Part shown: positions 1,250-20,709 of the stretch, one piece after another | Numbering within the stretch: the first letter of the stretch is position 1 | How the letters are laid out: each line of letters begins with the position of its first letter | IMG/VR virus record: IMGVR_UViG_3300033149_001484 | Span: 1-20,718 of that record | Length of the DNA: 20,718 nucleotides | Direction: 5' to 3' (one strand) | Source: a virus | Notes under the pieces: generated by a model | Database searches by the model: none | What the model was told of the DNA's origin: nothing | What the model saw: the letters and a program-made list of their open reading frames with translations, nothing else | Position numbers and translations under genes: made by a program

Positions 1250-1260
1250 CGTATCTCCTG

Positions 1261-1495: not shown

Positions 1496-1507
1496 CTAGG
1501 GCATGTA

Positions 1508-2617
1508 CTAGATTACCTTTAGTTTGTCCCAAGAAACCAGAGTTGTATAGAGTTTACCCGTATCCAGGTTCTTCACCCTACAAGTTCTATCCCGCTTATT
1601 AACGGTTTTGACCTCCACTTCCACGTCGGATTTTGCCCCCTGGGGGCGATAACCACACACATCACCCACCTCAGGTTCGAACTGTTCTTCTTCCTTATCC
1701 TGCTCTTCCTCATTTTCTGATCCCCCACTCGCTTCGATAATGGCTTGCGCTACCATCGTCCAGGTGTCAAATTCGTCTGGATCTAAATCCAGAGTCTGCG
1801 CTAGTTTCGTTAGTTGGGTTACCGCATCATCACCTTCCTGACCTTCCTCACTGTCGGCTGTTAACGCCAATTTTAACAGTTCCTCCGGAGTTAATTCCTC
1901 CGTATCACTACCATCGGCACTGCCACCAGCGCCATTATCAATACCACCGTCATCATCGACCTCATCTGATTCGAGCTCGGTGATCTCATCCGGTTCGGGT
2001 TCCTCATCTACCTCATCCCCATCATCATCGGGTTCGTAGTCCTCCAGACCCTTGTTGCCGTACCAGTTTTCCCAGGTTCTCTGTTCAGGATAATTCTCAT
2101 TAGGGGTACTCCCACTAGTACCAAACTTGAAGTAAACCCCAGATTCTTCCAATGCTTCCAGGATAGCCCCCAAGCTCTCTTCATCCGACATGCCGGTAGT
2201 GTCCGCCCCTAACTTGCGAAACTCATTCAGCAACTGTTCAATACGGCTATCGAAGTCTACTACTTCGCCCTGCGAATTAGTTGTATCACAGAGCGGAATC
2301 GTCATGCTGGTGCGTTGCCCCACCACCTCGACGGACTGTGGGGGTAAAGCCACTACCTTACCATCCACGAATGAACTGGGAGTCCAGGTAAACTTCCCCT
2401 TGGGCTCAACCACTATACCAGCCATATAAACGAACTGCTTACCCTTGTTGGGTCCACTTTGGTACTCCCCAATATGGCCATCGACGAATTTGGCAATACC
2501 ACCCTTGATTCCTGGTGGTAAGTCAATGTACTCCTGATTGTAGACAGTCTCATCGTTAGCGTGGTTTTTCAGCGATTGGCTCAACCGGTCGGCTAGTATA
2601 CTCTTACGCTTTGCCAT
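1508..2617 (-). CDS. Candidate phage single-strand DNA binding protein with acidic linker
   Basis: A 369-residue protein in three parts. Residues about 25-115 look beta-rich (YIDLPPGIKGGIAKFVDG, then GPNKGKQFVYMAGIVVEPKG) and suit an OB-like fold. Residues about 190-325 are extremely Asp/Glu-rich low complexity. The last 55 residues (EVGDVCGYRPQGAKSDVEVE to the C-terminus) look like a small SH3/KOW-like barrel. The candidate SSB role rests on the N-terminal pattern, the acidic tail (acidic tails mediate partner binding in many SSBs) and its place between polymerase and Sak4-like genes. No classical SSB signature is present. The start at 2617 has AGGAG 8 bases upstream. It might instead be another DNA-binding or scaffold protein. 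Confidence 0.6.
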   Translation of the reverse strand: MAKRKSILADRLSQSLKNHANDETVYNQEYIDLPPGIKGGIAKFVDGHIGEYQSGPNKGKQFVYMAGIVVEPKGKFTWTPSSFVDGKVVALPPQSVEVVGQRTSMTIPLCDTTNSQGEVVDFDSRIEQLLNEFRKLGADTTGMSDEESLGAILEALEESGVYFKFGTSGSTPNENYPEQRTWENWYGNKGLEDYEPDDDGDEVDEEPEPDEITELESDEVDDDGGIDNGAGGSADGSDTEELTPEELLKLALTADSEEGQEGDDAVTQLTKLAQTLDLDPDEFDTWTMVAQAIIEASGGSENEEEQDKEEEQFEPEVGDVCGYRPQGAKSDVEVEVKTVNKRDRTCRVKNLDTGKLYTTLVSWDKLKVI

Positions 2618-2702
2618 GATAGGCGCTCCTGTGGTTATAGTTAGAACACGGACACATCAACGCTAAGAATAGGTTATAGCACCTAATCCTATTAGATACT
2701 TA

Positions 2703-3563
2703 CTACTGGTCCCCCTGTATTATAGTTGCAATCTTATCATACGTAGGGTCCACAATGCTATCCGGTAATTTTACCCCCGGGGGCACTCGGAACCCCGTCA
2801 GATACACCGGATGCGGCCCTACCCGTAAACAATACTCCACTCCCCCGGTTTTCTTGCTGAACGTCTTCTCCTTTTTGCCGATTTTGATAGTTTGTTCTTC
2901 AGTAATCTCCCTTATATACGTCTGGCAGATATAGTCACAGGCCCCGTTCAACCAGCTTGCTACACTGGGGGTTAACGCACTACCGACAGTGGGCGTAATA
3001 ACCTCACTCTCACTTTCATCGTTAAAATTCCGCTCATGGGCGATAACTACTGTATTCACCCCCATATTGGATAGACCAAGTATCTCCTTCAGGCGCTGCT
3101 TAGTCTGTATCCCGCAAGTACCCCAGTCTTGCCTTTGGGCGATACCCCACGTCTTCTGAATAGGTATTTCCCCCAGCCCTAGTATCTCCTTCAGTAAAAT
3201 ATCCTGCAAGCCTCCCGCAGTATCCAACACCACGGTCTTATACCCGTCCTTCTCCACCATCAGTGGCACCGTGCCAAGATCACTACTAGAGTTCACCGGC
3301 AGAAAGTGGATACTCATAGACTTTCCCCGCAGAAACAACTCGTATCGCTTGTCGTCCAGTAACTCCCAACTAGTGCAAACGGACCTAACGCCTTCCTCCG
3401 TCCCCAGCAACAGTAAGGGTTTGGGAAAAGTGCATGCCAGTCGAGTCTTACCTGTCTTTCCCTGACCATACACACTTAGACGAATACCCTCACCTAACCT
3501 CTGCCTGACAGCTACCTGTTTCTTGGACGGTCGCTTGGCTACCTGCTTTCTAACTTTTACCAT
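2703..3563 (-). CDS. Sak4-like RecA-fold ATPase (recombinase)
   Basis: A 286-residue P-loop ATPase. Walker A is GQGKTGKT (33-40) and Walker B is KTVVLDTAGG (about 109-118). The helix TRLACTFPKPLLLLGTEEG is typical of the phage AAA/Sak4 family, RecA-like proteins that work in single-strand annealing or strand exchange, usually beside an SSB-like protein as here. An Arg/Lys-rich N-terminus (MVKVRKQVAKRPSKK) precedes the core. The in-frame ATG at 3596 is rejected because GGAGAGGGAAT places the ribosome at 3563. A promoter-like pair lies just upstream at 3602-3630. It may alternatively act as a DNA-repair or packaging ATPase. Confidence 0.8.
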   Translation of the reverse strand: MVKVRKQVAKRPSKKQVAVRQRLGEGIRLSVYGQGKTGKTRLACTFPKPLLLLGTEEGVRSVCTSWELLDDKRYELFLRGKSMSIHFLPVNSSSDLGTVPLMVEKDGYKTVVLDTAGGLQDILLKEILGLGEIPIQKTWGIAQRQDWGTCGIQTKQRLKEILGLSNMGVNTVVIAHERNFNDESESEVITPTVGSALTPSVASWLNGACDYICQTYIREITEEQTIKIGKKEKTFSKKTGGVEYCLRVGPHPVYLTGFRVPPGVKLPDSIVDPTYDKIATIIQGDQ

Positions 3564-3601
3564 TATTCCCTCTCCGGTACTTGAGCACCTTGTCACATAT
3601 A

Positions 3602-3630
3602 GTTATAGTTCCTGGGCTTCGCATTATCAT
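3602..3630 (-). promoter_or_regulatory. Promoter candidate for the Sak4-like gene
   Basis: On the minus strand ATGATA (3625-3630) and TATAAC (3602-3607) are separated by 17 bp. They match the sigma70 consensus at 4/6 and 5/6 positions. The predicted start lies near 3595, about 30 nt before the ATG at 3563. A small hairpin, TCCGC-GTA-GCGGA, lies just upstream. Confidence 0.4.
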
Positions 3631-3644
3631 CCGCGTAGCGGAGC

Positions 3645-4694
3645 TTATTCGTCGTCTAATTCTCTGAATAATTGCTCTCTACGCACCAACCCGACAGTAT
3701 TCCCCGTGTCAAGGTACCCATCGAGATCGGTAGTTCCATTCATCGGGGAACTCAGTGGATTATAGACGCCGTATGGGTATCTATAGTGAATCCCCCTATA
3801 CTGACCTCCGGGCTTGGACATAATCTGATACCACACATATAGTTGCTCCAGAATTGGTATGAGAAACTCGCACTCGAACCGCTGTATATCCAACTTAGTG
3901 ATCTGTATTTTCCAGCGATAAAAGTATTTCTCAGCATTGGGGGCGATCACCTGGTCTCTCAGGCGGTTATAGAAGTGCTCCTCTGTTTCCTCCGGCTCCG
4001 CCTTACTTATGCTACCATCCTTGCGCCGGTAGACTTTCTCCTTACGCCGTCTAATACTACCCTCCCCACCGCTCAGGGGTCTTCGCACTACATTATATAA
4101 AGCGCCTCTTGGCTTCCTTAGACAACCATAGTTGCGCAATGCCACCATATAGAACATCAGTTGAAGGTCAAACTTAAGTTGTCTCTGCAGTAGTTCCTCA
4201 TCTACCATACCCTTAGTCTTATTTTCCCAGAGATAGACGCTCTTATTGATTGTACATACTCTATCCCACTTACCCCGCAAAAAAACAGTTTTACCTGACC
4301 ATAACTTATATGGTATCTTAAATACTTCCTCAGTCAGTAGTGGTTTCACCTTATTACGGTTGTGATAATTCTTCCAGTAATCCAGATAGACCGGGAATTG
4401 TATCTTGCAGACCTGATACCAACGATCGATGTTTTCTTGTTCCAGCGGAAACCTGACACATAGCACGCTAACGTAGCTTTGCAGATCGGTTTCCCAATCG
4501 CTCTCAGCGGCTTCGCAAACATGCCACATATTGCCGTATTCTAGCGGAGCACTAAATGTATCCGGTACATCCAGCCCCTCTAGGTACTTTACCCTAAACC
4601 GTTCCCTACACACCAGGAAGTCCCCCAGCATACTCTGAGTTACCCCGTCTACTTCCGGTCCCTTCCACAGGGGATTATTCGTGAGATTTGGCAT
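3645..4694 (-). CDS. PD-(D/E)XK nuclease, Cas4/RecB-like
   Basis: A 349-residue nuclease of the PDDEXK_1/RecB-like class. The N-terminal stretch VTQSMLGDFLVCRERFRVKY matches the 'S-fxxCxxkf' helix of this family, followed by LEYGNMWH. Catalytic motifs are GKWD (D144), ENKTKG (E157, K159) and the QxxxxD helix RQLKFDLQ. These enzymes resect or trim DNA ends with a divalent metal, and in phages often sit with annealing or RecA-like proteins, as here. Cys30 is the only clear Cys in the Cas4-like position; a full four-Cys Fe-S set is not obvious. The start at 4694 has AAGGAG 6 bases upstream. A promoter candidate lies at 4720-4749. Confidence 0.82.
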   Translation of the reverse strand: MPNLTNNPLWKGPEVDGVTQSMLGDFLVCRERFRVKYLEGLDVPDTFSAPLEYGNMWHVCEAAESDWETDLQSYVSVLCVRFPLEQENIDRWYQVCKIQFPVYLDYWKNYHNRNKVKPLLTEEVFKIPYKLWSGKTVFLRGKWDRVCTINKSVYLWENKTKGMVDEELLQRQLKFDLQLMFYMVALRNYGCLRKPRGALYNVVRRPLSGGEGSIRRRKEKVYRRKDGSISKAEPEETEEHFYNRLRDQVIAPNAEKYFYRWKIQITKLDIQRFECEFLIPILEQLYVWYQIMSKPGGQYRGIHYRYPYGVYNPLSSPMNGTTDLDGYLDTGNTVGLVRREQLFRELDDE

Positions 4695-4719
4695 CTGCTA
4701 CTCCTTGTTTGGTTATACG

Positions 4720-4749
4720 ATTATACGAATTGTTTAACGCACTATACAA
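4720..4749 (-). promoter_or_regulatory. Promoter candidate for the PD-(D/E)XK nuclease gene
   Basis: On the minus strand TTGTAT (4744-4749), 18 bp, then TATAAT (4720-4725), a perfect -10 box. Predicted transcription starts near 4713, a short leader before the ATG at 4694. This implies the nuclease can be expressed independently of the UDG/RuvC genes upstream. Confidence 0.5.
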
Positions 4750-4765
4750 ACACGAATCCTCTCTG

Positions 4766-5323
4766 TTATAGCCGATCCAGTTCCCACGCTATCTCCTGAA
4801 GGGTAGCTATACACCGTTTGATGGCTAGTGGTTGCTTGACGGCTTCCATGCGCCTAATAGCCGCCGGGTGCACTATAGTGTAGATACCCCCAAACGAGTA
4901 GTTCGCCAGCAACTTACCCGTCCAGCCTTTTGCTAATTTTCCTATGTTCAGGAGAATTCTGGGCTTGGCAATCTCACAGAATTCTACCAGCCGATCCTGA
5001 CAAGCTATGATGGCTTCCTTTGAGGGTTCCCCAGTGCCTTCCTTCTTGGCTTTCTTGGGATAGCACGCCACTAGATTAGTCAATACCCACCGTGTCTTAG
5101 GTCTAGTCCGGAAGCCATCTACTATAATCACGTCTAATAGCTTGCCCGCTGGGCCAACAAATGGCCTACCTCTTACGTCTTCACTAACTCCAGGGGCCTC
5201 ACCTACCATTAGCACCTCACACGGTAGCTTTCCCCGTGCTAGTACTATTCTGGTCCTCTCTTGAGCCAAGTCACATTTCCTACATTCAGCCCATCTCCGT
5301 TTATGCAGTTGATACGGTGTCAT
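4766..5323 (-). CDS. Uracil-DNA glycosylase, family 4 (Fe-S type)
   Basis: A 185-residue enzyme that removes uracil from DNA, starting base-excision repair. Motif A is VGEAPGVSED (40-49), followed by GRPFVGPAGKLLD. Motif B is VHPAAIRR (H152). Four Cys suit a 4Fe-4S cluster: C14 and C17 (CRKC), C87 (TNLVACYP) and C108. This is the full family 4 signature. The in-frame ATG at 5425 is rejected. The ATG at 5323 follows AGGAG formed at the stop codon of the RuvC gene, 14 bp away, whereas the longer form would overlap RuvC by 88 bp. It likely limits uracil in viral DNA or feeds recombination (inference). Confidence 0.88.
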   Translation of the reverse strand: MTPYQLHKRRWAECRKCDLAQERTRIVLARGKLPCEVLMVGEAPGVSEDVRGRPFVGPAGKLLDVIIVDGFRTRPKTRWVLTNLVACYPKKAKKEGTGEPSKEAIIACQDRLVEFCEIAKPRILLNIGKLAKGWTGKLLANYSFGGIYTIVHPAAIRRMEAVKQPLAIKRCIATLQEIAWELDRL

Positions 5324-5337
5324 GCTACACAAGTCTC

Positions 5338-5919
5338 CTATTTCGTATCGGCGGTTCTCCAACAATACTCCGCGATGAGCAGAGCATCGCAAACGGCCAT
5401 CTGAATGTACTTTGGTTCCCTCCATAATTCCAGATCTGGAAATAGTTCCTCCGCAAACCGCCGCAATCGTCCCTTAAACTGCCCTTGAGTTTCTGTATAT
5501 CTATAGCCTACCCGGGGCTTACCGGCACTGGTTAGTCCAACTGATATACGTTGCTTTTTTCTGGTAGGAATACCCAGCCCGGCTTGCCAATCCTGCGGCC
5601 TGACTTCCTGAAGGGAAATACCCATCGCCGTTATTGCCATGGCTATCCGTTCACAGTTCACACCAAATGTAAACGCACTAGCGACGCCCATCTGTGGTGA
5701 TGAATGATTCTTCTCTACCATAGCTATACACGTACAGGGACGGTATCCACTGTCAAATTGCCGTAACCATTCCACGATGGCTTGCCTAGTCCCTACCCCT
5801 CTCGACAACACGAGGTATGGTTGGGCAACGTCTGAACGTACCCAACCATCCCGACCCAGCGCAACTAGACCACCGTTACTACCTGGGTCCCCGCCGATGA
5901 ATGTAGTTGGTTTAGTCAT
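5338..5919 (-). CDS. RuvC-like Holliday junction resolvase
   Basis: A 193-residue RNase H-fold nuclease. The first acidic motif is IGGDPGSNGGL (D11), the second is CIAMVEKNH (E69), and the C-terminal motif is VCDALLIAEY (D178). Between them lies EVRPQDWQAGLGI, a strong signature of phage and bacterial RuvC-like resolvases. It probably cuts four-way junctions from replication or recombination, possibly before packaging. The ATG at 5919 overlaps the previous small gene by 8 bp, so the two are probably coupled. Its length is close to E. coli RuvC. Basic residues 119-152 could contact DNA. Confidence 0.87.
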   Translation of the reverse strand: MTKPTTFIGGDPGSNGGLVALGRDGWVRSDVAQPYLVLSRGVGTRQAIVEWLRQFDSGYRPCTCIAMVEKNHSSPQMGVASAFTFGVNCERIAMAITAMGISLQEVRPQDWQAGLGIPTRKKQRISVGLTSAGKPRVGYRYTETQGQFKGRLRRFAEELFPDLELWREPKYIQMAVCDALLIAEYCWRTADTK

Positions 5920-8065: not shown

Positions 8066-8090
8066 ACTTCGATCGATACTAGTGTATAAT
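8063..8090 (+). promoter_or_regulatory. Promoter for the accessory gene run
   Basis: TTTACT (8063-8068), 16 bp, then a perfect TATAAT (8085-8090). Predicted start near 8097 gives a 51-nt leader to the ATG at 8148. It follows a strong terminator, so it likely begins a new transcript through the small ORFs. Confidence 0.55.
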
Positions 8091-8147
8091 AGGGGCAGAC
8101 GAAGGGAAACGAGACAACTCAAATCAAAACTAAGGAAAGAGACCAAG

Positions 8148-8357
8148 ATGACACAAGCGCAAACCAAATTGGAGGCGGCCAAAACCAACCTAGGAAGGAC
8201 TCTCGCAGAGTGTAACAGAATCAACGCGGAGTGGTTGGCGACCCGTGCAAAATGGGGGAAAGCCATCGCAGAGGCCCTCGCGGAGTGGTCCGATGCCCAA
8301 GCGAAGTGGGAAGAGGCCATCGCGGAGTGGGAAAAGGATAAGGAAGCAAACTCGTAA
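8148..8357 (+). CDS. Small Trp-periodic helical protein (copy 1)
   Basis: A 69-residue, almost entirely helical Ala/Glu/Lys/Trp-rich protein. Trp recurs at 7- or 11-residue spacing (INAEW, RAKW, LAEW, QAKW, IAEW), as in a heptad/hendecad coiled coil with Trp in the core. There is no membrane segment or signal peptide. The GTG at 8082 is rejected since it lies in the -10 box; the ATG at 8148 follows AAGGA with an 11-base spacer. It resembles the proteins at 8770 and 9141. Its stop codon lies inside the AAACTCGTAACC intergenic motif. Function unknown; coiled-coil assembly or host-factor binding are possibilities only. Confidence 0.65.
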   Translation: MTQAQTKLEAAKTNLGRTLAECNRINAEWLATRAKWGKAIAEALAEWSDAQAKWEEAIAEWEKDKEANS

Positions 8358-8769: not shown

Positions 8770-9057
8770 ATGACTCACGAAACGAGAAAAACCGAATTGG
8801 ACGTGATCGACGATGAATTGGCCATGGCTGAAGAGCGAGAGCGCGAGGCTGGCCTGAAGTCGTGCGACGCTGGCATGAAGTGGAAAGACGCCCGCGATGA
8901 GTGGAAAGCGAACCCCACCGAACAAGCCCTGGCGGCCATGAGAGAAGCCGACGCGGCGTGGAAAAGGGCCGAGCAGGAATGGGACGATGCCTACGCGGAG
9001 TGGGAACGCGCGAGCACGGCATGGGCCGAGGCTGACGAACACCTGGCAACCTTGTAA
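8770..9057 (+). CDS. Small Trp-periodic helical protein (copy 2)
   Basis: A 95-residue highly charged helical protein. Its C-terminal half has Trp every seven residues: DAAW, EQEW, YAEW, STAW. An earlier pair (MKW, DEW) has the same spacing, separated by a 20-residue Ala-rich interval. The stretch AYAEWERA resembles the AIAEWEKD part of the first copy, so the two are probably paralogues. It starts at ATG 8770 with AGGAGG 8 bases upstream and ends in TGTAAACTCG. No enzymatic motif, Cys pair or membrane segment is seen. A parallel or antiparallel coiled-coil oligomer is likely (inference). Confidence 0.65.
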   Translation: MTHETRKTELDVIDDELAMAEEREREAGLKSCDAGMKWKDARDEWKANPTEQALAAMREADAAWKRAEQEWDDAYAEWERASTAWAEADEHLATL

Positions 9058-9115
9058 ACTCGTGACTGAGGACACCGTCCAAGGGCAGGCGGGTGGGTAT
9101 AACTCAGGGAGAAAA
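9053..9115 (+). repeat. Intergenic cassette, copy 3 (divergent)
   Basis: TGTAAACTCGTGACTG then ACACCGTCCAAGGGCAGG, GGGTATAACTCAGGGAG. It aligns with the other cassettes but with scattered changes that weaken the hairpin. The preceding gene again ends at the TAA of TGTAAACTCG. An extra 25 bp precede the next ATG. Confidence 0.65.
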
Positions 9116-9140
9116 AGTGATAACTCATAAGGAGGACAGC

Positions 9141-9512
9141 ATGATCCATGACAACTTTAACGAGCGAACATTCCGCAAGATGCGCCGTGTGGCTGATCTT
9201 ATGCACACGGAACTCGCGCAAGCCGCCGAACTGCCGGCGACTCAAGCCCACATCAGCACCCACTTAATCGAGAGGGAGAAGGAGACCCGCACGGACTTGG
9301 AGGCGGCCCAGGTCCGCGCAGAGGCGGCCCGCGCAGAGACAAGAGAAGCCTACAGGGATTGGTGCGAGACTCGTACCACTGAGGCCTACCAACAGTGGGT
9401 CGAGGCCGACGCGGCACGCAGAAGGGCCGACGCGGAATGCAAGAGGTCCCGCGCAAAATGGGCTAGGGCCGATAAAGCACTAATCGAGGCCGCCAGACGG
9501 AAAAGGCTGTGA
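9141..9512 (+). CDS. Small Trp/Ala/Arg-rich helical protein (copy 3, extended)
   Basis: A 123-residue protein. The N-terminal part (to about residue 55) is unlike the other copies; the C-terminal 70 residues are a long Ala/Arg/Glu helix with spaced Trp (YRDW, YQQW, RAKW) and ADAARRRADAECKR repeats. The ATG at 9141 follows a perfect AAGGAGG at 5 bases, so the in-frame ATG at 9093 is rejected. Unlike its neighbours it ends in TGA just before the TGTAAACTCG cassette. It is basic rather than acidic. It is probably a member of the same family with a grafted head; function unknown. Confidence 0.62.
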   Translation: MIHDNFNERTFRKMRRVADLMHTELAQAAELPATQAHISTHLIEREKETRTDLEAAQVRAEAARAETREAYRDWCETRTTEAYQQWVEADAARRRADAECKRSRAKWARADKALIEAARRKRL

Positions 9513-9845: not shown

Positions 9846-10046
9846 ATGACACCAACTCAAGCGGCTAAGGTCATAGGATGTAGCCCGGGACAAGTCCGTA
9901 CGCTGATTCGCACGGGCAAGATCCAAGCCACGGTCTATGCGATGCCGGGAGGTATCTACTATGACATTACCCCCCGTGAAGTCAACCGCTATAAGACCCA
10001 GCCACAGAAGCAGGGTTGGCCTCGTGGTCAATCCCGGCGCATCTAA
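9846..10046 (+). CDS. Excisionase/MerR-like helix-turn-helix protein
   Basis: A 66-residue DNA-binding protein. MTPTQAAKVIGCSPGQVRTL is a textbook HTH of the MerR/excisionase class, followed by a strand-turn wing (AMPGGIYYDITPREVNRYKT) and a basic tail. These proteins bind DNA as directionality factors or small regulators. No integrase is in the window, so a regulatory role is equally likely. The ribosome site GGAAAAGAAAC is weak and lies in a hairpin. The helicase gene starts 23 bp after the stop. Confidence 0.72.
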   Translation: MTPTQAAKVIGCSPGQVRTLIRTGKIQATVYAMPGGIYYDITPREVNRYKTQPQKQGWPRGQSRRI

Positions 10047-10069
10047 CTAACCGAGACAGGAGTAACAAG

Positions 10070-12007
10070 ATGAAAAAATCAGAGATTAGAGTCGGCGGTT
10101 GTTACATCGCCAAGATCAACAACAAGTTGACCACGGTTAGGGTAGATACTCTACGGGAACAGTCCCACAATAGTAGGACCACTACCGTCTATGATGTCAC
10201 TAACCTCACGACTGGACGTAGTACTACCTTCCGGTCTGCCGCAAGGTTTCGTCGCCCGGCCGCCCGTCATGGTTCTGCGACTCCATCCTTATCACAGACC
10301 TTATCACAGCGACTCGCTAAGAGGCACGATGACAGTCCGCAACGACACGATCACATCGTGGTTCGCGCCTACGCCGGCACAGGAAAGACATTTACGCAGA
10401 TCGTCGGCGTGGCTTGGGCGTACGGCCAGTCCGTCTGGCCGGAAATCCAAGCGGGTATTGCCGGGATGGTGGGCATCGACCCCGAAGAATTTGAGATAAC
10501 GCCGTCCGACGAACAACAAGCTGTCTGGGATGCCTTTGCGGAGAGTAAGGGTGAAACAACTAGTATCGTGTATTGCGCCTTCAACAAGAGTATAGTTACG
10601 GAGTTTAGCGTACAGTGGGGGTGGCTGGTGCAACTACTCCAGTCCGTAGGTGTCAATCTCCGCTTCGCTACTATCAATAGTCTAGGGAGCCAAGCTGTCT
10701 ACCAACATTACGGCAGGATGCGGATCGACAAAGACAACGTGGAGAAGGTCATCGCTCGTTTGCTGAACGAGGATATTTGGGATCTGAGACGGGGGCAACA
10801 GACCCTCCTAAAGGCTACGGTCAAATTAGTAGATATGGCCAAGCTGACTCTGGCTGGATGGGATGAAAAACACGGGTTTTCGCCCCAAGAGGTAACGGAT
10901 GATGTGCTAGACAGACTATGCAGTCAATACGACATCGAGACTAACGGAGCTAGAGAGAGAGTATATCCCCTAGTCCGGGATGTGCTGCAGGAATGTATGG
11001 AACCCAAAAGTTTTATTGACTTTAACGACCAAAACTGGCTCCCAATTATTAACGACCAATCAGTCGCCAAAGCGGATCTGGTGTTAGTCGATGAAGGGCA
11101 AGATCTCAACCGCTGCAAACAGGAGTTCTGCCGTCGCATTGCCGGTACTCGTGGTCGTATGGTGCTGGTTGGTGACGTGAACCAAGCTATCTACGGTTTC
11201 GCCGGGGCCGACGTGGATAGCATCCCACGCATGGAGCAGCTACTAGGGGTGACCAAACCTCTGACGTTGTCGGAGACCCGTCGTTGCTGTCAAGCGGTAG
11301 TTCGGGAAGCACAACAGATTGTCCCTGGTTTCCGCGCGCACCCTGATAACCCCGAAGGTCTGGTGCGCACTCTGTCGGTCGACAAGTACACCAAAGAAGT
11401 TACTGACGGAGATATGGTGCTGTGTAGAGTCAACGCCCCACTAGTCTCTCAAGCTCTACGGCTAATTAAGGATGGTCGTAAGGCAGTTATCCGAGGACGA
11501 GACTTCGGAACCACCTTGCAAAACTTCGTTAAGAGGATAAAGGCCACAACCATAGAAGGCTTGTTAAGCGCGGTGGATAAATGGGTTTCGAAAGAATCCG
11601 TCAAGGAGGGGCGCAAAAAATTCCCCAGTGAGGCACGCATCCTAGCCATCCAGGATCGGGGCGACTGCATTCACGCTTTCGCAGAAGATGCCGAAACCAT
11701 TGAAGATATTATTACCAAGATGACCCTAGTATTCGCCGGGAAAGTCTGCCCCAAATGCGGAAAGCATTACGGAGAAGAGACAGCGAAATGTTATACGTGC
11801 AAAGCAATGCTGGTAACCCCTCAAGGTGTCCTGTTCAGCAGTGTGCATAAGGCTAAGGGATTAGAGGCAAATCGGGTATTCATCTTCCTGAAAGATGCCC
11901 CGATGCCTCACCCTATGGCTAAGTTGTCGTGGGAGCGCCAACAGGAAGTCAACCTAAAGTATGTAGCTATCACCAGGGCCAAAAGAGAACTGGTTTATGT
12001 TAACTAG
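10070..12007 (+). CDS. UvrD-like superfamily 1 helicase with N-terminal domain and zinc ribbon
   Basis: A 645-residue ATP-driven DNA helicase. Walker A is AYAGTGKT (100-107), motif II is VLVDEGQD (338-345), motif III is GDVNQAIYGFAGA (368-380), motif V is SVHKAKGLEA (591-600) and motif VI is YVAITRAKRE (631-640). Two additions stand out. Residues 1-62 form a separate small beta domain (EIRVGGCYIAKINNKLTTVR, then TNLTTGRSTTFRSAARF). A four-Cys zinc ribbon (C560, C563, C574, C577) sits just before motif V. The ATG at 10070 with AGGAG 7 bases upstream replaces the in-frame ATG at 10016, which would overlap the HTH gene. It may unwind DNA in replication or recombination with the minus-strand module. 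Confidence 0.88.
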   Translation: MKKSEIRVGGCYIAKINNKLTTVRVDTLREQSHNSRTTTVYDVTNLTTGRSTTFRSAARFRRPAARHGSATPSLSQTLSQRLAKRHDDSPQRHDHIVVRAYAGTGKTFTQIVGVAWAYGQSVWPEIQAGIAGMVGIDPEEFEITPSDEQQAVWDAFAESKGETTSIVYCAFNKSIVTEFSVQWGWLVQLLQSVGVNLRFATINSLGSQAVYQHYGRMRIDKDNVEKVIARLLNEDIWDLRRGQQTLLKATVKLVDMAKLTLAGWDEKHGFSPQEVTDDVLDRLCSQYDIETNGARERVYPLVRDVLQECMEPKSFIDFNDQNWLPIINDQSVAKADLVLVDEGQDLNRCKQEFCRRIAGTRGRMVLVGDVNQAIYGFAGADVDSIPRMEQLLGVTKPLTLSETRRCCQAVVREAQQIVPGFRAHPDNPEGLVRTLSVDKYTKEVTDGDMVLCRVNAPLVSQALRLIKDGRKAVIRGRDFGTTLQNFVKRIKATTIEGLLSAVDKWVSKESVKEGRKKFPSEARILAIQDRGDCIHAFAEDAETIEDIITKMTLVFAGKVCPKCGKHYGEETAKCYTCKAMLVTPQGVLFSSVHKAKGLEANRVFIFLKDAPMPHPMAKLSWERQQEVNLKYVAITRAKRELVYVN

Positions 12008-13689: not shown

Positions 13690-13962
13690 TCCCCAGCCGC
13701 AACAGTGCTACCAAACCTGGTGCCAGGTAGCCCCATCTATCCACCCGGTAGTAGGGGGTCTTTCTACGTGCCCGTAGCAGGCCTATTTAGGCCTTGCGTG
13801 GCGGAAGGCTATAGTGTCCGACCACAATCCTTGCGACGCCCGTACGGGGCTGCTAGGTGCCTCTACGGGCGTATTTGGGGGCAGGGGCGTGCCCTGATAG
13901 ATCCTCTACCCCCCGCAAGCTGGGATGGGAGTAACAGCACCCCACTATATTAGGGGGTAGAG
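13690..13962. other. Convergent intergenic region rich in hairpins
   Basis: Between the ends of the plus-strand and minus-strand genes lie several perfect inverted repeats: ACCTGG-TG-CCAGGT near 13718; AGGCCTA (13779-13785)/TAGGCCT (13788-13794); ACGCCCGTA (13836-13844)/TACGGGCGT (13864-13872); CAGGG-GCGTG-CCCTG near 13882; CTCTACCCCC (13904-13913)/GGGGGTAGAG (13953-13962). None has a long T run, so they are not standard terminators, although some may help end the two converging transcripts. A structured RNA is possible. An 82-codon ORF here lacks a ribosome site and is not called. Confidence 0.4.
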
Positions 13963-14702
13963 GGTAATACCCAAGGCCCCCCACTAGCCTGCCACGGTAC
14001 CACACCCAAGTGGGCCTGTCTAGTGCGGTCGGTTAGTAGCTCCTGGCTAAGTTCTGTACAGCCGGGATCACAGTGGGGGTGCATCTGGTGATGACCGATG
14101 ATACTCCTGGAGTAGATCGGCCGTAGCCCCAGACCTTGCGTAAGGCATAGTGCAAACCACCTATCCTCCGCCGACGGTGCCGTGAATTCCTCATCATTAC
14201 CACCGACGGTATATAGATCGGTTCGGTATAATGATCCCAGAAAGAATAATGGTCTCCGTCGTTGGGGACTTACATATACCTGCAACTTGTCACCGTATCC
14301 TCTCCCTTTGGGGTCGGACACCATCTGTCCCTGCTTATCTACGTTGATTACGGTTGCCAGCAGAAAGTACCCCGGTCGTAGATCGCTACATAAATGATCG
14401 ATACACCGGGGACTGTGGTGGATTACATCATCCGACTGACATATTAGGATTGTCCCCTTAGCTGCACGATAGGCCACATTCCGGGCGATGGCGGGATTGC
14501 GATAGCTCGGTTCTCGCTCTATGCGGATGTAGTTCACTCCCGGGAATTCCCCGCACACCTTACGAGTGCCGTCACCGGGGGAGCCATCGTCCACCACGAT
14601 TACTTCGTAGGGTAAGGACACTACCTGCTGGAAAATACTGGTGAGGGTGTTCTTGAGTAACTCCGGTCGGTCGTAAGTCGCAATACAAATGCTACACTTC
14701 AT
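13950..14702 (-). CDS. GT2-family glycosyltransferase
   Basis: A 250-residue GT-A fold sugar transferase. The N-terminus MKCSICIATYDRPELLKNTL and VIVVDDGS bind the nucleotide sugar; the metal-binding DXD equivalent is CQSDDV. ARNVAYRAAKG and FFLGSLYRTDLYTVGGNDEEF are characteristic further on. It is clearly a paralogue of the N-terminal half of the 18622-17297 protein (shared GGNDE, IGHHQ, ASGGPW), without the methyltransferase. Its ATG shares a base with the stop codon of the C-terminal radical SAM frame (TAATG), showing tight coupling. GGAG lies 8 bases upstream. Acceptor unknown. Confidence 0.82.
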   Translation of the reverse strand: MKCSICIATYDRPELLKNTLTSIFQQVVSLPYEVIVVDDGSPGDGTRKVCGEFPGVNYIRIEREPSYRNPAIARNVAYRAAKGTILICQSDDVIHHSPRCIDHLCSDLRPGYFLLATVINVDKQGQMVSDPKGRGYGDKLQVYVSPQRRRPLFFLGSLYRTDLYTVGGNDEEFTAPSAEDRWFALCLTQGLGLRPIYSRSIIGHHQMHPHCDPGCTELSQELLTDRTRQAHLGVVPWQASGGPWVLPSTP

Positions 14703-14807
14703 TACAGGAACTCCGGATGGTTGACACCCTCGATTAACGGACGGAGAATCTGGTTATAACTCTCATAGTAGCACTTCCGGCAAGGTACCCGGAACAACTT
14801 ACGTTTT
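14702..14807 (-). pseudogene. Displaced C-terminus of the split radical SAM/SPASM-like gene
   Basis: In a frame shifted by one base relative to the upstream ORF, this stretch encodes RKLFRVPCRKCYYESYNQIL and ends NHPEFL, a CxxC-containing tail typical of the end of radical SAM/SPASM proteins. Removing one A from the four-A run (plus-strand T run 14804-14807) would join the two frames into one protein of about 318 residues. The stop TAA overlaps the next ATG (TAATG) as expected of the true gene end. Sequencing error, mutation or programmed +1 shift cannot be told apart. Confidence 0.65.
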
Positions 14808-15659
14808 ACGTTCCGGTCCGTATATCTCACGTAGGTTGAACGCACTACCCATCCGAAGTTGCTTAGGCATGTCCCGAATACCGTTGTCCAGGGCATATTG
14901 AGCGCCGCAACATAGGTACATGTCAAAATTGGGATCTATGACGGGTTTGATGTATCCGATGACGCATGTCTTGGAGGGTGTGGGTCGGTCTCTGTGCTGG
15001 TAGATTACCCTCTTGTCTATTCCCGATAAGTACTGTCTGACCCTGTCTAAATCTACTAGTTGAGCGTTAAACAGATCGGCTACCAGCCTGACGTGCGTGA
15101 ACTTTTCGTCGTTGGCAAATTCCACCAGTTCACGAATGCGTCGATAGTTAGGGTGCGGAGATACTACATAAGAAAACGCCCAATCGACCAACGGTCCCCT
15201 GTTGATAGCTCCCTCTATAGTTTCCAACCATTTGGGGGTCACTTCCTGCTCATCGCTGCAACTTATACGGCACCAGACCATCTTACTAAAATCGTGTTTC
15301 TCTAGCTTATCTAGTAGAAAACCATTAGACACTAGGCCGATGGAAATACCACACTCCTTGAATTGCCGTAACATATCGGACAAACCGGGGTGGCATAATG
15401 GTTCTCCACCACCAGTGATAGTTACAGTCTTGCAACCTAGTTGAGCCAGTTCCCTGATGATAGTCAGCGACTTATCAATAGGCATGGTGGCTTGTTTGTT
15501 TCGATCCCGACAGGAACAAAACGTACAGTTTCGGTTACAGATATTTGTGGGCATCCATTGGACATGAACGGGCAATAATTCAGTCACACCTTCAGCATTC
15601 AGAAATAGCTTCGGAGGAATATAATCAGCAGCGCTATAACTTGCGCGTATATCAGTCAT
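14799..15659 (-). CDS. Radical SAM enzyme, SPASM-like (main reading frame)
   Basis: A 286-residue protein as read. The 4Fe-4S/SAM site is CNRNCTFC (C41, C45, C48), and the SAM-binding GGE motif is ITGGGEPLCHP (81-91). A C-terminal Cys set (CVIGYIKPVIDPNFDMYLCC) suits an auxiliary cluster as in SPASM proteins. The ORF stops at a TAA right after NLREIYGPERKT, where the family would continue to a final CxxC; that piece lies in the next frame. The ATG at 15659 overlaps the preceding gene by 8 bp with AGGA upstream. Radical SAM enzymes of this sort modify peptides, sugars or nucleotides; the substrate is not evident. Confidence 0.8.
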   Translation of the reverse strand: MTDIRASYSAADYIPPKLFLNAEGVTELLPVHVQWMPTNICNRNCTFCSCRDRNKQATMPIDKSLTIIRELAQLGCKTVTITGGGEPLCHPGLSDMLRQFKECGISIGLVSNGFLLDKLEKHDFSKMVWCRISCSDEQEVTPKWLETIEGAINRGPLVDWAFSYVVSPHPNYRRIRELVEFANDEKFTHVRLVADLFNAQLVDLDRVRQYLSGIDKRVIYQHRDRPTPSKTCVIGYIKPVIDPNFDMYLCCGAQYALDNGIRDMPKQLRMGSAFNLREIYGPERKT

Positions 15660-16536
15660 AGTTGGTTATCCTGGCCTTCGGCGGTAAGACTTCTAGGATC
15701 GTCCTAGTGAGCGTGGTTATTTGGTGTGTCACATTATTAGGGGTGAGCGTAGTTTTGGGTCCACGGGCAGTCCCGGAGCCTCCAAACCAGTGAATACCAT
15801 AACAGTTGTCCGGTAGTTTACAATCCCACCTAAATATCTTATGTGTCTCTCTCCAATCGAATGGGTATACAGTTTCGTCCGGCACTCTAGCTATACATAG
15901 GGGAGTATACTTGTCCATAAACCTGGCAATAGTTTTGTGCGCTCCTTGGTTAGTCGTATGGTATTTTCCAGTGCCCGCTAACCTATAAAGTACTTCTACC
16001 CCATATTTCTGGTAGCCTACGTAACTCTCGTCTGTTCGTTGGGCTTCCTGATAAACATCTTGAAACAACAGGTTACCCGGCGATGTCCCAAAGAACCCTA
16101 TAGCCATGAATCCTCGCTCTACACAGAAAATGACATCCTGGGTATTAGCTTTTTCACCCCTTGTCGTTGTTAGGTTATCTAGGGACCTGCGCCATAGAAT
16201 ATCCATATCGGCATACCAACCTCCTCGACTAGCTAGGGTTTTCCACTGGTACAGGTCACAAGCATAAGCCGGGGGCATACCCATCCAGTCCCCCGAAGTC
16301 TCGTGAATGATGCCTAAGTCATCTAGCCGCTCCCGCCAATCGAACCCCGCATATTCCTCATCCGCTGCGATGTCTTCCTCCCACCGGCCCCGTTGAATAT
16401 CTTCCTCGTGGGTTGGTTGGCAGAGATAAATCTTCCAATTGGGGTGGAATACCCTAAATGATGCCAAGGTTAGCCATCGCAACCAGGACATACGGCCTTG
16501 CCAATAGAACGATATGATGTTCGGAATCTTGCTCAT
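15652..16536 (-). CDS. GT32-like glycosyltransferase with DXD motif
   Basis: A 294-residue protein: IPNIISFYWQGRMSWLRW start, ACDLYQWKTLASRGGWYADM with DMD (110-112), and a late YGIHWFGGSG. This order matches the Gly_transf_sug/GT32 class, in which DXD binds the metal and sugar nucleotide. It ends in a basic tail. It overlaps the previous gene by 4 bp (ATGA) and the next by 8 bp. Cytoplasmic: no signal peptide or membrane segment. Donor and acceptor are unknown. It is one of two such enzymes here (the other is at 18636). Confidence 0.75.
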   Translation of the reverse strand: MSKIPNIISFYWQGRMSWLRWLTLASFRVFHPNWKIYLCQPTHEEDIQRGRWEEDIAADEEYAGFDWRERLDDLGIIHETSGDWMGMPPAYACDLYQWKTLASRGGWYADMDILWRRSLDNLTTTRGEKANTQDVIFCVERGFMAIGFFGTSPGNLLFQDVYQEAQRTDESYVGYQKYGVEVLYRLAGTGKYHTTNQGAHKTIARFMDKYTPLCIARVPDETVYPFDWRETHKIFRWDCKLPDNCYGIHWFGGSGTARGPKTTLTPNNVTHQITTLTRTILEVLPPKARITNYD

Positions 16537-17300
16537 GGTAGTTTCCCGGCCGATGGTCTACATAGTTTTTCGGCCGATGGTCCATTAGCAGCTTTTCGCG
16601 ACTCGATTATTTTGACGGTATTAGCTAGGTGCTCCAGCCATCGACTAACACGTTCACCATTATCTATCCGTGGGGTTACCCTACCACACCAGTTCCAACC
16701 GACGCGGTTATTTTCTGGTAAACCTTCCGGCCCTAGATGGAGTACTTCCCACGGTGGTCTAATCTTCTTGTCGGGCGGGTACCGTTGTTCAAAATCTGAA
16801 TCTCCCCCACCGCAATGCGGCCAACAACTTGTATGCCACGGGGGGTTAATCGCGCTAGCATGGAATATCTGACAGTACCCCGAGAACTCTCCCGGTCTCG
16901 TAGGACTAGGGTATTGCTCCCAATCAGTGACGGGACAACGGATAAACTCTCTGGGGGTTTCTACTATCCGGCGTATCGGAGCATACAGGCAAGATCGATC
17001 CATCACTGGGATCTGAATGCTATCGGGTAGGACTATATCAGCATCCCAAACGCAAATCCAACCATCCCTACCTAACTCATCGAAGCCCTGCTCTATAGCC
17101 GCCCCCTTGTTAAACGCCGCCCCTCGATCGTAGAAAATATCCGTGACTAATAGATTCACCCCATAACTGAAAGCTATCTGCTGTGTCTGTTTGTCTCTGG
17201 TGGATGTGACTACCAGGGTTTGCTCAAAATGCCTCCGGTTGCGGGGCAATGTATAGGCTAGAAAGTCATCGTACTCCACACAGACGGTTAGTGACTTCAC
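16533..17300 (-). CDS. GT-A glycosyltransferase-like protein, GTG start
   Basis: A 255-residue GT-A protein: KSLTVCVEYDDFLAYTLPRN, FNKGAAIEQGFDELGRDGW, then WDADIVLP with DAD (86-88). The C-terminal half has Trp/His/Pro and GGGDSDFEQR typical of family A/galactosyltransferase-like folds. The GTG at 17300 is chosen because GGAGG lies 7 bases upstream and GTGA overlaps the stop of the preceding gene; the ATG at 17321 would sit across this ribosome site. Its tail contains a near repeat, GPSAEKL and RPSAGKLP, from duplicated CGGCCGATGGTC DNA. Function: sugar transfer, specificity unknown. Confidence 0.72.
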   Translation of the reverse strand: MKSLTVCVEYDDFLAYTLPRNRRHFEQTLVVTSTRDKQTQQIAFSYGVNLLVTDIFYDRGAAFNKGAAIEQGFDELGRDGWICVWDADIVLPDSIQIPVMDRSCLYAPIRRIVETPREFIRCPVTDWEQYPSPTRPGEFSGYCQIFHASAINPPWHTSCWPHCGGGDSDFEQRYPPDKKIRPPWEVLHLGPEGLPENNRVGWNWCGRVTPRIDNGERVSRWLEHLANTVKIIESRKAANGPSAEKLCRPSAGKLP

Positions 17301-18622
17301 GGTAAATCCTCCAGATTCCACAACCCCAAGCTCTTATCCTGAAACGACGGATAACTTTCCCGGCAATCTTCGTTAATTAGCTCTACCGGTTCCGGGAAGT
17401 TGAACGGTGGGGCTTGTAGATTGTAGGGTCTCCACCTGCCCGTCTCATGTGACTGAATCACCCTACCGTTACCGTGCCTGGGGAAAGTGGTGCTAAGTAA
17501 CCACTTGGCTCCATTCTGCCTGAAGTTGCGGATAGCCCTGGATATATCTCCAGAACAGAGGTGTACTAGGCAATCTCGACACAATATCAAGTCCGCTTCG
17601 GGTAGGTGATCCTGTAATATGTCCGAACAATGAAACTCTCCCCAGTCCTCCGAGTTGAGTTGCTCGATAATTTCCGGCACGATGTCAACCCCAAGGTATC
17701 GTACGTCGTGTAATTCCATCCTCCGTATCCAATGACAATCACCACAGGGGGCGTCTAGTAGAGTCTTCACACCTAACCTGTCAAGTAGGTTCGGGATGGC
17801 TTGTCTAATTACTTTGGTGGCCTCTAGGGATGAACCTTCCCCGCTACGTGATTCCGTACCGCCCCAGATATTCTTCTGGTATATCTGCTTGAATATTTCC
17901 TGGTGAGACGTTAGCCAAGGGCCACCACTGGCACACCAGGGTATTTCGCCCCGTTCCGCCTGTTCCCGTTTTGTCTTAATGAGTTTACGGTTGATTATCT
18001 CGCCCCTCCTATTAACCGACACGGGATGCCATTGGTGGTGTCCAATCGGATAATCCAGGTAGACAGGTGTAAGTCCTCTACCTTTAGTCAGACAGTCCGC
18101 AAGCCATTGATCCTCACATGCGTGACCGGCCATAAAATCTTCGTCGTTACCGCCGATAGCATACAGGTCTTCACGGAACAAAGCGCCAAGGAAGAATAGC
18201 GGGGCTTGTCTCTCCTTCCCGGTAAACACACCACGTATCTTTCCATCCGGGCCTAGACAATCCACATGGGCGAACACACAGTACCCAGGTGCCAGTGCGT
18301 CAATCAGGGAGTCTATGGTATCCCGGTTGGTATGTACCACATCGTCACTTTGGAGAATTGTGATCGGACCTTTAGCCATCCGATAGGCCACATTGCGAGC
18401 ATGGGATGGATTGCGGGGTATGGGCTCTCGGTCTATGTGGTGATAGACGGTATCGTAGTTGGTGCATATAGCCCTATTCTCATCGGACTGCAACGAACCA
18501 TCGTCCACCACAATCACCTCCGGATTGTGTTTGGTGTGCTGTCGGTGGATACTTTCCAAGGTCCGTTTGAGTAGCCGGGGACGGTTGAACGTAGCCATAC
18601 AGATTGACACGTCGGGAGTCAT
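17297..18622 (-). CDS. GT2 glycosyltransferase fused to a class I SAM methyltransferase
   Basis: A 441-residue two-domain enzyme. Residues 1-236 are a GT2 domain (VSICMATFNRPRLLKR, VIVVDDGS, ILQSDDV at 89-95, YAIGGNDEDF, IGHHQWHP) closely like the 250-residue protein at 13950. Residues about 237-441 are a Rossmann methyltransferase: KNIWGGTESRSGEGS, then TLLDAPCGDCHWI (motif I), YLGVDIVPE and ADLILCRDCLVHL. The fusion suggests sequential transfer and methylation of one glycan (inference). ATG at 18622 has AGGA 7 bases upstream. It overlaps the next gene at GTGA. The GT2 domain likely duplicated with or from the stand-alone copy. Confidence 0.83.
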   Translation of the reverse strand: MTPDVSICMATFNRPRLLKRTLESIHRQHTKHNPEVIVVDDGSLQSDENRAICTNYDTVYHHIDREPIPRNPSHARNVAYRMAKGPITILQSDDVVHTNRDTIDSLIDALAPGYCVFAHVDCLGPDGKIRGVFTGKERQAPLFFLGALFREDLYAIGGNDEDFMAGHACEDQWLADCLTKGRGLTPVYLDYPIGHHQWHPVSVNRRGEIINRKLIKTKREQAERGEIPWCASGGPWLTSHQEIFKQIYQKNIWGGTESRSGEGSSLEATKVIRQAIPNLLDRLGVKTLLDAPCGDCHWIRRMELHDVRYLGVDIVPEIIEQLNSEDWGEFHCSDILQDHLPEADLILCRDCLVHLCSGDISRAIRNFRQNGAKWLLSTTFPRHGNGRVIQSHETGRWRPYNLQAPPFNFPEPVELINEDCRESYPSFQDKSLGLWNLEDLP

Positions 18623-18635
18623 TTGCCGTTCCTGT

Positions 18636-19358
18636 TTATCGTGTGCGCATAATCAGTAACTTGTGTATCAGCAGGGGACTTTGGTGCCACTTGGATACAG
18701 GTAGGGTTATTTCCCTATTATGTCGATACATGAAGTAAGAGTGGTTAAGTCCAAATAGTAGGCTGTGTTCCTCCAGATGGTCCCAGAATTCCCCTGGTTG
18801 AAAGAAAGTTTCCACCGAATTATCAATCTCAATAGGTAAGAAAGTCTTCAGACACGCCCTAACGGCCCCAGGATACTCGGGTACAAAGTGACTCAAGACG
18901 CCTTCCCCTAGTGCCGCCCAGTTAAGAGTAGACGGGAGGTCGTGTTTCAGTTTGTAGTTGATTCTCCCTAACCACTCATAAGCCACCTCCTGAGTACAGT
19001 AGATATAACCGTTCATAACTCGCAATGGTAGATTTGTCCACTGGGCGTAGATAACGGAAGCATCTCTGGGATACAACTCAAGCAATCTAGCCGGGTCTTG
19101 TAGACCGATGGTGTCTGCATCTACCCAGAGACCTCCATGCTTGGCTAATAGGGCAGCACGATACACGTTGGCCCTATAGGTCGGACTGGCCGGTAGTCCC
19201 CTGAAGTTAGTATGAATAGTCTCAACATCTAAATACTGTTCTAGGTTCTCAGGTGTAACTAGGGTGTAGGTAGACTGTTCGCAAACCTTGCGCATAGATT
19301 CGATACAGACATCGATATAGTGGGGTCGCCGGCCTTCCCAGTAGCTCCAGACGTTCAT
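18636..19358 (-). CDS. GT32-like/capsular glycosyltransferase with DXD motif
   Basis: A 240-residue protein: MNVWSYWEGRRPHYIDVCIE, then TYRANVYRAALLAKHGGLWV followed by DAD (80-82), the metal/sugar-nucleotide site of the GT32/capsular-synthesis class. The C-terminal half is less conserved (ALGEGVLSHFVPEYPG, LLFGLNHSYFMYRH). It starts at ATG 19358 with GGAG 5 bases upstream and overlaps the previous methyltransferase by 4 bp. A gap of 13 bp separates it from the fusion protein downstream. No signal peptide. Substrate unknown. Confidence 0.75.
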   Translation of the reverse strand: MNVWSYWEGRRPHYIDVCIESMRKVCEQSTYTLVTPENLEQYLDVETIHTNFRGLPASPTYRANVYRAALLAKHGGLWVDADTIGLQDPARLLELYPRDASVIYAQWTNLPLRVMNGYIYCTQEVAYEWLGRINYKLKHDLPSTLNWAALGEGVLSHFVPEYPGAVRACLKTFLPIEIDNSVETFFQPGEFWDHLEEHSLLFGLNHSYFMYRHNREITLPVSKWHQSPLLIHKLLIMRTR

Positions 19359-19897
19359 AGTTGCTCCATATCTAAAGCATCAAATGCTAGAATTAGGTGC
19401 TTTGCCCTAGTGCCGTTGTTCAGGGGCCTCTCTACTATTAACCTTTCGGAGGGTGTTGTGTGGATTGTCCAGCTACTTATATCTTCCTCTGTAACGTCAT
19501 AATGTATGTCGCTTGGAGGACAATCCAACCAACCTAGTGGGAAACTCAGGATAGCTGAATGGGATACCCTAATAACTTCGCTAAAAGCCTGCTGTTGCAT
19601 TGGTCCTAAATGCTCCCACACTTGGAGGGCCACCACACAATCGTAGGCTTTATCAGCTATGGGCCAGGGGACAACTCTAGCATCATGCCTATAGCGAATC
19701 TGGGGTTGGGTATCAGGTAGATCCATAACGTCGGAACCAACAAAAATTGGGTCAATTGCCCCAATCTCCAACAGCGTCTGGGGGTTACGGGACATAACCA
19801 TCCGATGCACTTCCCGGAAATACTCCCAACGTCCGGAGTAATATACTAGATGTTTGACTAGCTTGTGGTATTGCTCATAGCTTATCGGTTCAATCAT
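19355..19897 (-). CDS. Class I SAM-dependent methyltransferase-like protein
   Basis: A 180-residue protein. TLLEIGAIDP (about 41-50) is a motif I-like SAM site, and AYDCVVALQVWEHLGPMQQQ fits motif II/post-II of the Methyltransf_11 class. It lacks a strict GxGxG, which suggests a diverged or specialised member. It overlaps genes on both sides by 4 bp (ATGA), a pattern of translational coupling. It may methylate a sugar or lipid-linked intermediate made by its neighbours. It is short compared with full-length families but complete in frame. Confidence 0.7.
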   Translation of the reverse strand: MIEPISYEQYHKLVKHLVYYSGRWEYFREVHRMVMSRNPQTLLEIGAIDPIFVGSDVMDLPDTQPQIRYRHDARVVPWPIADKAYDCVVALQVWEHLGPMQQQAFSEVIRVSHSAILSFPLGWLDCPPSDIHYDVTEEDISSWTIHTTPSERLIVERPLNNGTRAKHLILAFDALDMEQL

Positions 19898-20709
19898 TGT
19901 AAGTATTTCCAGGGTTGGTTAGTCCGGGGTAACTTGTCGTAGACTTCGTATCGTCCCGCCTTTACCCGTGGACTATCCTGAAGAGAATCTAGGTTGGTTA
20001 CGCTAATATCGTCTATTTCCTCCGAGTCAATACGTCCCTCCAGTGATAATGGCACACCACAACGAGGACACCATCGGTTAATTTGGTCCTGATAGTCGCT
20101 TAATGGCCTCCGCCAACAATCAGGCCCTACAGGTAATCCACCCGGACCACCTAGGAGCATATCCCAAGCACCAGCTACCTCACAGAAGAATAGTCCCTTG
20201 GGCGTGATGGTCCCCGACCACCTGGTTTGTAACCAGCAATTTCTTATTAGTTGTTTCCGCGAGACTTCGTTATGTACTATATCTTTGATCGCCACCAAAA
20301 CGGGTGTATGCTTAACCCGACCGTCGTGCTTATTGTTGTTGACGAATCCAAACGTTTCCCTTATCAACTTAGCGTACTTAGTCTTCTGCCAGGACAATCC
20401 GGTCCATAACCCCCGGTGTCTTCTGTTCGGGATAGCTACAGCCATTACCCTACATATCTCGGAGAACATGGGGTGTAGTAGGGGTTCTCCACCTATAATA
20501 CCAACTACCTTATTCGACACCCTTTGAACGGTTGGGGGGCTCTTGGTCGGGAAGTCTTTGAGGGCTTGCGCGGCGCAATCAAACTGCGCTAGAGACATAT
20601 AGTAGGGCTCCCGGAAATGACCGATGAAACGAGTGCAGTTAGAGCATTGCCGATTACACGCATTGGTTATGTCGATCTGGATACACCATTGGTCTTTCGG
20701 ATCTATCAC
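19894..20709 (-). CDS. Radical SAM enzyme with C-terminal Cys motifs
   Basis: At least 271 residues. The radical SAM site is CNRQCSNC (C18, C22, C25) after WCIQIDITNA; the GGE motif is IGGEPLLHP (72-80). The C-terminus has FFCEVAGAWDMLLGG and a WCPRCGVPL zinc or cluster-like pair. It differs from the 15659 protein in layout, so it is not a simple duplicate. A GTG at 20709 with AGG upstream is a fair start, but the frame stays open to the window edge, so an earlier start is possible. It heads the visible part of the operon; it may install an unusual group on a sugar, peptide or base. Confidence 0.78.
   Translation of the reverse strand: MIDPKDQWCIQIDITNACNRQCSNCTRFIGHFREPYYMSLAQFDCAAQALKDFPTKSPPTVQRVSNKVVGIIGGEPLLHPMFSEICRVMAVAIPNRRHRGLWTGLSWQKTKYAKLIRETFGFVNNNKHDGRVKHTPVLVAIKDIVHNEVSRKQLIRNCWLQTRWSGTITPKGLFFCEVAGAWDMLLGGPGGLPVGPDCWRRPLSDYQDQINRWCPRCGVPLSLEGRIDSEEIDDISVTNLDSLQDSPRVKAGRYEVYDKLPRTNQPWKYLQ

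Follow-up and report, generated by a model that had tools for sequence, protein, structure and literature searches.

What would a virus modify with two radical S-adenosylmethionine (SAM) enzymes, five glycosyltransferase domains and two methyltransferase domains encoded in one operon? The question is raised by a virus record of 20,718 nucleotides (IMG/VR record IMGVR_UViG_3300033149_001484, positions 1 to 20,718), which we refer to as the window and handled as a fragment, and in which such a cassette occupies positions 13950-20709 of the minus strand. A sequence-only reading of the window had placed the cassette beside a viral-type replication module and had proposed four possible products, namely a decorated surface glycan, glycosylated virion proteins, a modified peptide or hypermodified DNA bases. 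Gene context in relatives favours the glycosylated virion proteins, and the other three products are less likely. The cassette probably glycosylates the virion proteins of the phage itself, with a twitch-type radical SAM enzyme, here called rSAM1, oxidising or epimerising a sugar.

Results

The cassette contains eight tightly spaced genes

The cassette consists of eight tightly spaced open reading frames (ORFs) that run from 20709 to 13950 (Table 1). Domain searches and ORF spacing bear out the earlier count of two radical SAM, five glycosyltransferase (GT) and two methyltransferase (MT) domains with tight or overlapping junctions, although the count rests partly on weak family matches for MT1 and the GT32-like protein, and GTx had no family match in the domain searches. 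Successive junctions are +4, +4, -13 (a gap), +25, +4, +8 and +1 nt, mostly overlaps of 1-25 nt. All eight genes are present, but the second radical SAM gene, rSAM2, is frameshifted near 14804. Because sites found in a promoter and terminator scan were no commoner than in shuffled sequence, the limits of the operon rest on gene spacing. The block itself is real, but it continues beyond the window, where the contig L101 supplies, upstream, one further GT gene and, beyond it, tail genes.

No cassette protein contains a hydrophobic segment of membrane-helix length, the highest 19-residue hydropathy being 1.26. O-antigen and capsule loci of hosts combine membrane components with nucleotide-sugar biosynthesis; no membrane GT, flippase, polymerase, lipid-linked transferase or nucleotide-sugar synthesis gene was found in the block, which sets it apart from such loci.

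Table 1. Features of the window, with their positions, strand and the basis of their assignment.
Feature	Position	Strand	Description
rSAM1	19894-20709	-	Twitch-type radical SAM; Pfam Radical_SAM weak (E 0.014), assignment secured by relatives
MT1	19355-19897	-	Class I SAM-dependent methyltransferase; Methyltransf_11 E 4e-4, marginal (at cut-off)
GTcaps	18636-19358	-	Caps_synth/DXD glycosyltransferase, E 4e-11
GT2-methyltransferase fusion	17297-18622	-	Glycos_transf_2 E 1e-15; phrog_3382 methyltransferase half E 4e-54
GTx	16533-17321	-	GT-A-like; DAD motif and homology to the GT half of the L152 fusion
GT32-like DXD glycosyltransferase	15652-16536	-	Under Pfam cut-off; DMD motif
rSAM2, N-terminal part to frameshift stop	14799-15659	-	Radical SAM core E 3e-15, plus C232-X17-C250
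rSAM2, out-of-frame remainder	14702-14799	-	CX2C and C-terminal helix
GT2	13950-14702	-	Family 2 glycosyltransferase, E 8e-17; paralogue of the GT2 half of the fusion
UvrD-type helicase	10016-12007	+	Convergent with the cassette, as in G018
Replication/repair module (polA exonuclease, HNH, SSB-like, Sak4, PDDEXK, UDG, RuvC-like)	3-5919	-	Collinear with G018 35.4-46 kb

The cassette ends a tail operon

The contig L101, recovered in a scan with the rSAM1 alignment, ends in the same 114 nt, without a single difference, with which the minus strand of the window begins; most simply, the two are pieces of one genome. Read towards the cassette, the tail genes of L101, with a tape-measure gene (PHROG E 3e-69) among them and others after it, lead up to a GT gene (GT0) and rSAM1, and the proteins encoded upstream of the cassette include Cys-containing minor tail proteins (L101 6979-8842). 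GT0 is homologous to the GT encoded just upstream of the cassette in G018, an 80-kb relative that is collinear with the whole window. The search for the gene set in other viral genomes, which the sequence-only reading had suggested, found the core order of the cassette in G018, where it follows the tape-measure gene. The order there is tail genes, cassette, and then convergent UvrD, a ParB-like gene, RuvC, UDG, PDDEXK, Sak4, SSB-like, HNH and polA. Protein identity to the G018 counterparts, which stand in the same order, is 58% for rSAM1, 47% for GTcaps, 44% for the GT2-MT fusion, 49% for GTx and 38% for the GT32-like protein, and a gene order kept at 38-58% identity is more than chance. The loci L047 and L093 (genome G001) are an exact fragment of G018 and are not independent of it.

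Because tail genes lie upstream in L101 and the order is collinear in G018, the cassette is the 3′ end of a late structural (tail) operon on which the replication genes converge. The replication module noted earlier is present, but calling the cassette its neighbour is misleading, since the cassette ends the tail operon and runs towards the replication genes from the opposite direction.

rSAM1 resembles twitch-type radical SAM enzymes

The cysteines of rSAM1 form a CX3CX2C motif (C18, C22, C25), a C158-X17-C176 pair and a C214-X2-C217 pair, the last two of which provide the four cysteines of a twitch auxiliary cluster. Among 38 sequences of the family, the CX3CX2C radical cluster motif and the C-X17-C pair are present in all 38, and the late CX2C in 34 by a position-limited motif search on fragments; in the alignment, both cysteines of the late CX2C are invariant columns. 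A profile of the 38 sequences aligned along the length of BtrN (E 8e-4), with the columns of C158 and C176 falling on BtrN cysteines. The structural model of rSAM1 (pLDDT 92) had its best matches in the PDB with SpeY (E 7e-8) and then BtrN (E 2e-4), at TM-scores of about 0.4-0.5.

SpeY, BtrN and HygY share with rSAM1 the fold, the radical-cluster motif and the four conserved twitch cysteines, but they act on small molecules in antibiotic biosynthesis and their identity to rSAM1 is low (14-17% in structural alignments). BtrN oxidises an aminocyclitol hydroxyl, with the four-cysteine auxiliary cluster as the likely electron acceptor (PMC9012708), and HygY, according to work cited in PMC10991966, is an epimerase of the twitch type that also has a latent dehydrogenase activity. 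Its profile and predicted fold mark rSAM1 as a putative sugar dehydrogenase or epimerase, and from its likeness to SpeY, BtrN and HygY-type enzymes an oxidised or epimerised sugar would be its likeliest product.

rSAM1 is paired with GTx in viral genomes

A GTx homologue is encoded at most 4 kb downstream of rSAM1 and on the same strand in every viral rSAM1 locus with enough flanking sequence (the window, G018, L095, L096, L097, L098, L099 and L100, of which L099 and L100 look like one virus). On L152, a contig of a bacterial genome with phage-like small genes, the two are fused into one protein of 585 residues. In L099/L100 the pair stands between genes for the portal and for head morphogenesis and precedes the major capsid gene, and in L098 it adjoins a tape-measure gene.

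Homologues of rSAM1 also occur in many bacteria (L102-L158), including Desulfovibrionaceae, Selenomonadaceae, Lachnospiraceae, Brachyspira and Gastranaerophilales. They are often the N-terminal part of proteins of 400-600 residues amid glycan genes, and their neighbours are epimerases, nucleotidyltransferases and GTs. Flagellin was found in all 16 tested genomes that bear a cellular rSAM1. Because the rSAM1 and flagellin genes share a contig in only some of these genomes and flagella are common in many of the taxa, a role of the cellular homologues in flagellin glycosylation stays a possible lead.

Relatives of rSAM2 and of the fused methyltransferase in structural operons

The cysteines of the rSAM2 family (CX3CX2C, a C-X17-C pair and a later CX2C) likewise fit a four-cysteine twitch cluster. 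In the window, rSAM2 is broken by a one-base frameshift at an AAAA run (14799-14810). Its conserved C-terminal CX2C piece, which relatives encode in frame, is here read in a different frame as far as 14702, where the start codon of GT2 overlaps the stop codon of the remainder (TAATG). The frameshift may be a sequencing or assembly error or a real loss. The model of the relative in L010 (pLDDT 93) has as its nearest folds the sugar or nucleoside enzymes DesII and BlsE and the peptide maturases SuiB and SkfB.

Relatives of rSAM2 are encoded between the head-tail adaptor and the major tail protein in L009, L010 and L013, to which L030 is syntenic, and downstream of the major head protein in L016, L018 and L034; in further loci they have other tail genes nearby. 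The uncultured podovirus ctQWt234 (MW202801) has the order major capsid protein, radical SAM, GT, dioxygenase (PhyH), MT, NodB and GT. Mycobacterium phage Ariel has a homologue of the phrog_3382 MT half of the fusion, gp17, in a GT/GT/kinase/MT block after the capsid gene. Because their position and relatedness differ between relatives, rSAM2 and the small MT look like exchangeable parts. When single sequences (the two radical SAM enzymes, the GT2-MT fusion and the GT32-like protein) were used to scan viral contigs, no relatives came up, whereas alignment-based scans did find them; searches of phage records with GTx, the GT32-like protein, GTcaps and MT1 found nothing.

Other features of the window and of G018

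The UDG (4766-5425) and RuvC-like (5338-5919) genes overlap by 88 nt, and their order is the same in G018. Three small predicted proteins rich in Trp, Ala and Glu are encoded on the plus strand at 8082-8357, 8770-9057 and 9093-9512; they have similar repeated helical patterns and are possibly paralogues. In G018 the cassette ends in a B12-binding radical SAM gene (L159 18483-19841) that has no counterpart in the cassette of the window. G018 also encodes, at 40.8-42.3 kb (L161 829-2325), a protein that has a bacterial pre-peptidase C-terminal domain and weakly matches a planctomycete extracellular signal family, which hints at a planctomycete host.

Discussion

The cassette most closely recalls the virion glycosylation cassettes of mycobacteriophages (Corndog, Che8, Myrna and the cluster J phages Omega and Ariel), in which soluble GTs and an MT are likewise encoded among head and tail genes. 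Corndog and cluster J phages have such GT/MT blocks amid head genes (PMC4351075, PMC3706429), and glycosylation of the capsid and tail tube has been reported for mycobacteriophages including Corndog, Che8 and Myrna in studies cited in PMC11600133 and PMC12363180. The same features, GTs and an MT in one block within or next to virion structural genes, are seen here in the gene content. The annotated block of Ariel lists no radical SAM gene, whereas the window has two twitch-type radical SAM genes and several unrelated GT families. Judged by this analogy, the cassette would most likely work like a mycobacteriophage cassette to which radical SAM chemistry has been added. The block of ctQWt234 also resembles that of the window in having a radical SAM gene homologous to rSAM2 that lies, as do GTs and an MT, a short way downstream of the major capsid gene, but no rSAM1-GTx pair was found in it, and its radical SAM protein alone was shown to be homologous to one in the window. 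The glycan clusters of T4-like cyanophages and pelagiphages combine radical SAM, GT and/or MT genes in one block as well, but they also encode sugar-nucleotide enzymes, and their gene order is not conserved with the window. Among cultured phages, the Synechococcus phages SynMITS9220M01 (MT408532) and S-SCSM2R (PQ898602) have a radical SAM-GT block comparable to the cassette. The statement that no named system has this exact content holds within the searches made.

Because of the position of the cassette, its soluble enzymes and the mycobacteriophage precedent, virion proteins are the preferred acceptor. We infer that the acceptor would be a tail tube, minor tail or capsid protein of the phage and that the cassette would be expressed late. 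The soluble GTs would build a short glycan from host nucleotide sugars, and the methyltransferases would O-methylate it. rSAM1, as a BtrN/SpeY/HygY-like enzyme partnered with GTx, would use a 5′-deoxyadenosyl radical to oxidise or epimerise a sugar carbon, and rSAM2 would be a second tailoring enzyme that varies among relatives and is broken in this contig.

Several observations weigh against virion glycosylation. The evidence from operon position is correlative, and module borders tend to collect extra genes; a recognised head or tail gene lay within 10 kb in 13 of the 26 nearest rSAM2 loci, for which representatives rather than every ORF were scanned. The TM-score between rSAM1 and SpeY is just about 0.5. 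The remaining points each belong to a different explanation. In marine T4-like phages, radical SAM and GT genes occur in clusters that have been attributed to host lipopolysaccharide: the pelagimyophage radical SAM gene cassettes lie in the host-recognition region and, with their GTs, were interpreted as acting on the host surface glycan (PMC7029224). A cassette that alters the surface glycan of the infected host, for superinfection exclusion or receptor masking, would also account for the GT2 and Caps_synth families, which are typical of host polysaccharide loci, and for the epimerases, nucleotidyltransferases and GTs around cellular rSAM1 homologues. The block nevertheless encodes no membrane protein or lipid-linked step, and its place after the tail operon, together with the insertion into head or tail operons in relatives, fits particle proteins better than early host takeover, so that we consider this explanation unlikely.

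DNA as the acceptor, with the enzymes extending a glycan on hypermodified bases, appears more improbable, although G018 does carry a DNA-hypermodification module with its own GT and radical SAM protein. Beside polA it encodes a 5-hydroxymethyldeoxyuridine (5-hmdU) DNA kinase helical domain, a TET-associated glycosyltransferase (TAGT), a radical SAM protein and a thymidylate synthase-like protein (L161 6346-10458; 46.3-50.5 kb), and the contig of the window ends inside polA, so the equivalent region lies outside the window. This module is about 27 kb from the cassette, however, on the replication side, and G018 may thus be one genome with two distinct radical SAM/GT modification systems. Of the 28 cassette-bearing records searched, the 27 besides G018 lack the HMUDK and TAGT families; several of these span 42-78 kb, and many are fragments. 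The cassette itself has no base-activating gene (hmdU kinase, TAGT or modified thymidylate synthase), and it follows tail genes and lies inside head/tail operons in relatives. The presence of SuiB and SkfB among the nearest folds of rSAM2, together with the Cys-containing minor tail proteins upstream, would suit radical SAM enzymes that modify a virion peptide directly, by a cross-link or epimerisation as in ribosomally synthesised and post-translationally modified peptides, with the GTs and MTs acting on the same protein. That we judge very unlikely: no domain for precursor recognition was found, the matches of rSAM1 are to carbohydrate enzymes and it is fused to or paired with a GT, and rSAM2 resembles DesII and BlsE about as closely as SuiB.

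Virion glycosylation thus remains the explanation that we favour. It is a tentative further step, to which we give somewhat less than even weight, that the pair represents phage-specific glycan tailoring: a twitch radical SAM enzyme would act with its dedicated GT, sometimes within a single polypeptide, to make an oxidised or epimerised sugar on virion proteins, and both would have cellular counterparts in the glycan loci of bacteria. The open-access literature searched did not describe radical SAM enzymes as taking part in virion glycosylation, which is not proof of novelty.

Glycosylation of phage particles is known from few isolates, and the direct evidence, in work cited in PMC12363180, comes from mycobacteriophages. 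The cassette would extend particle glycosylation to uncultured phages and add radical SAM sugar chemistry to it; if this is true, viruses make a radical-SAM-tailored glycoprotein. Such systems can be sought in sequence data with the rSAM1-GTx pair as a compact marker, and its cellular homologues, which lie in glycan loci of bacteria, suggest that radical SAM enzymes for tailoring glycans form a wider family, as yet uncharacterised.

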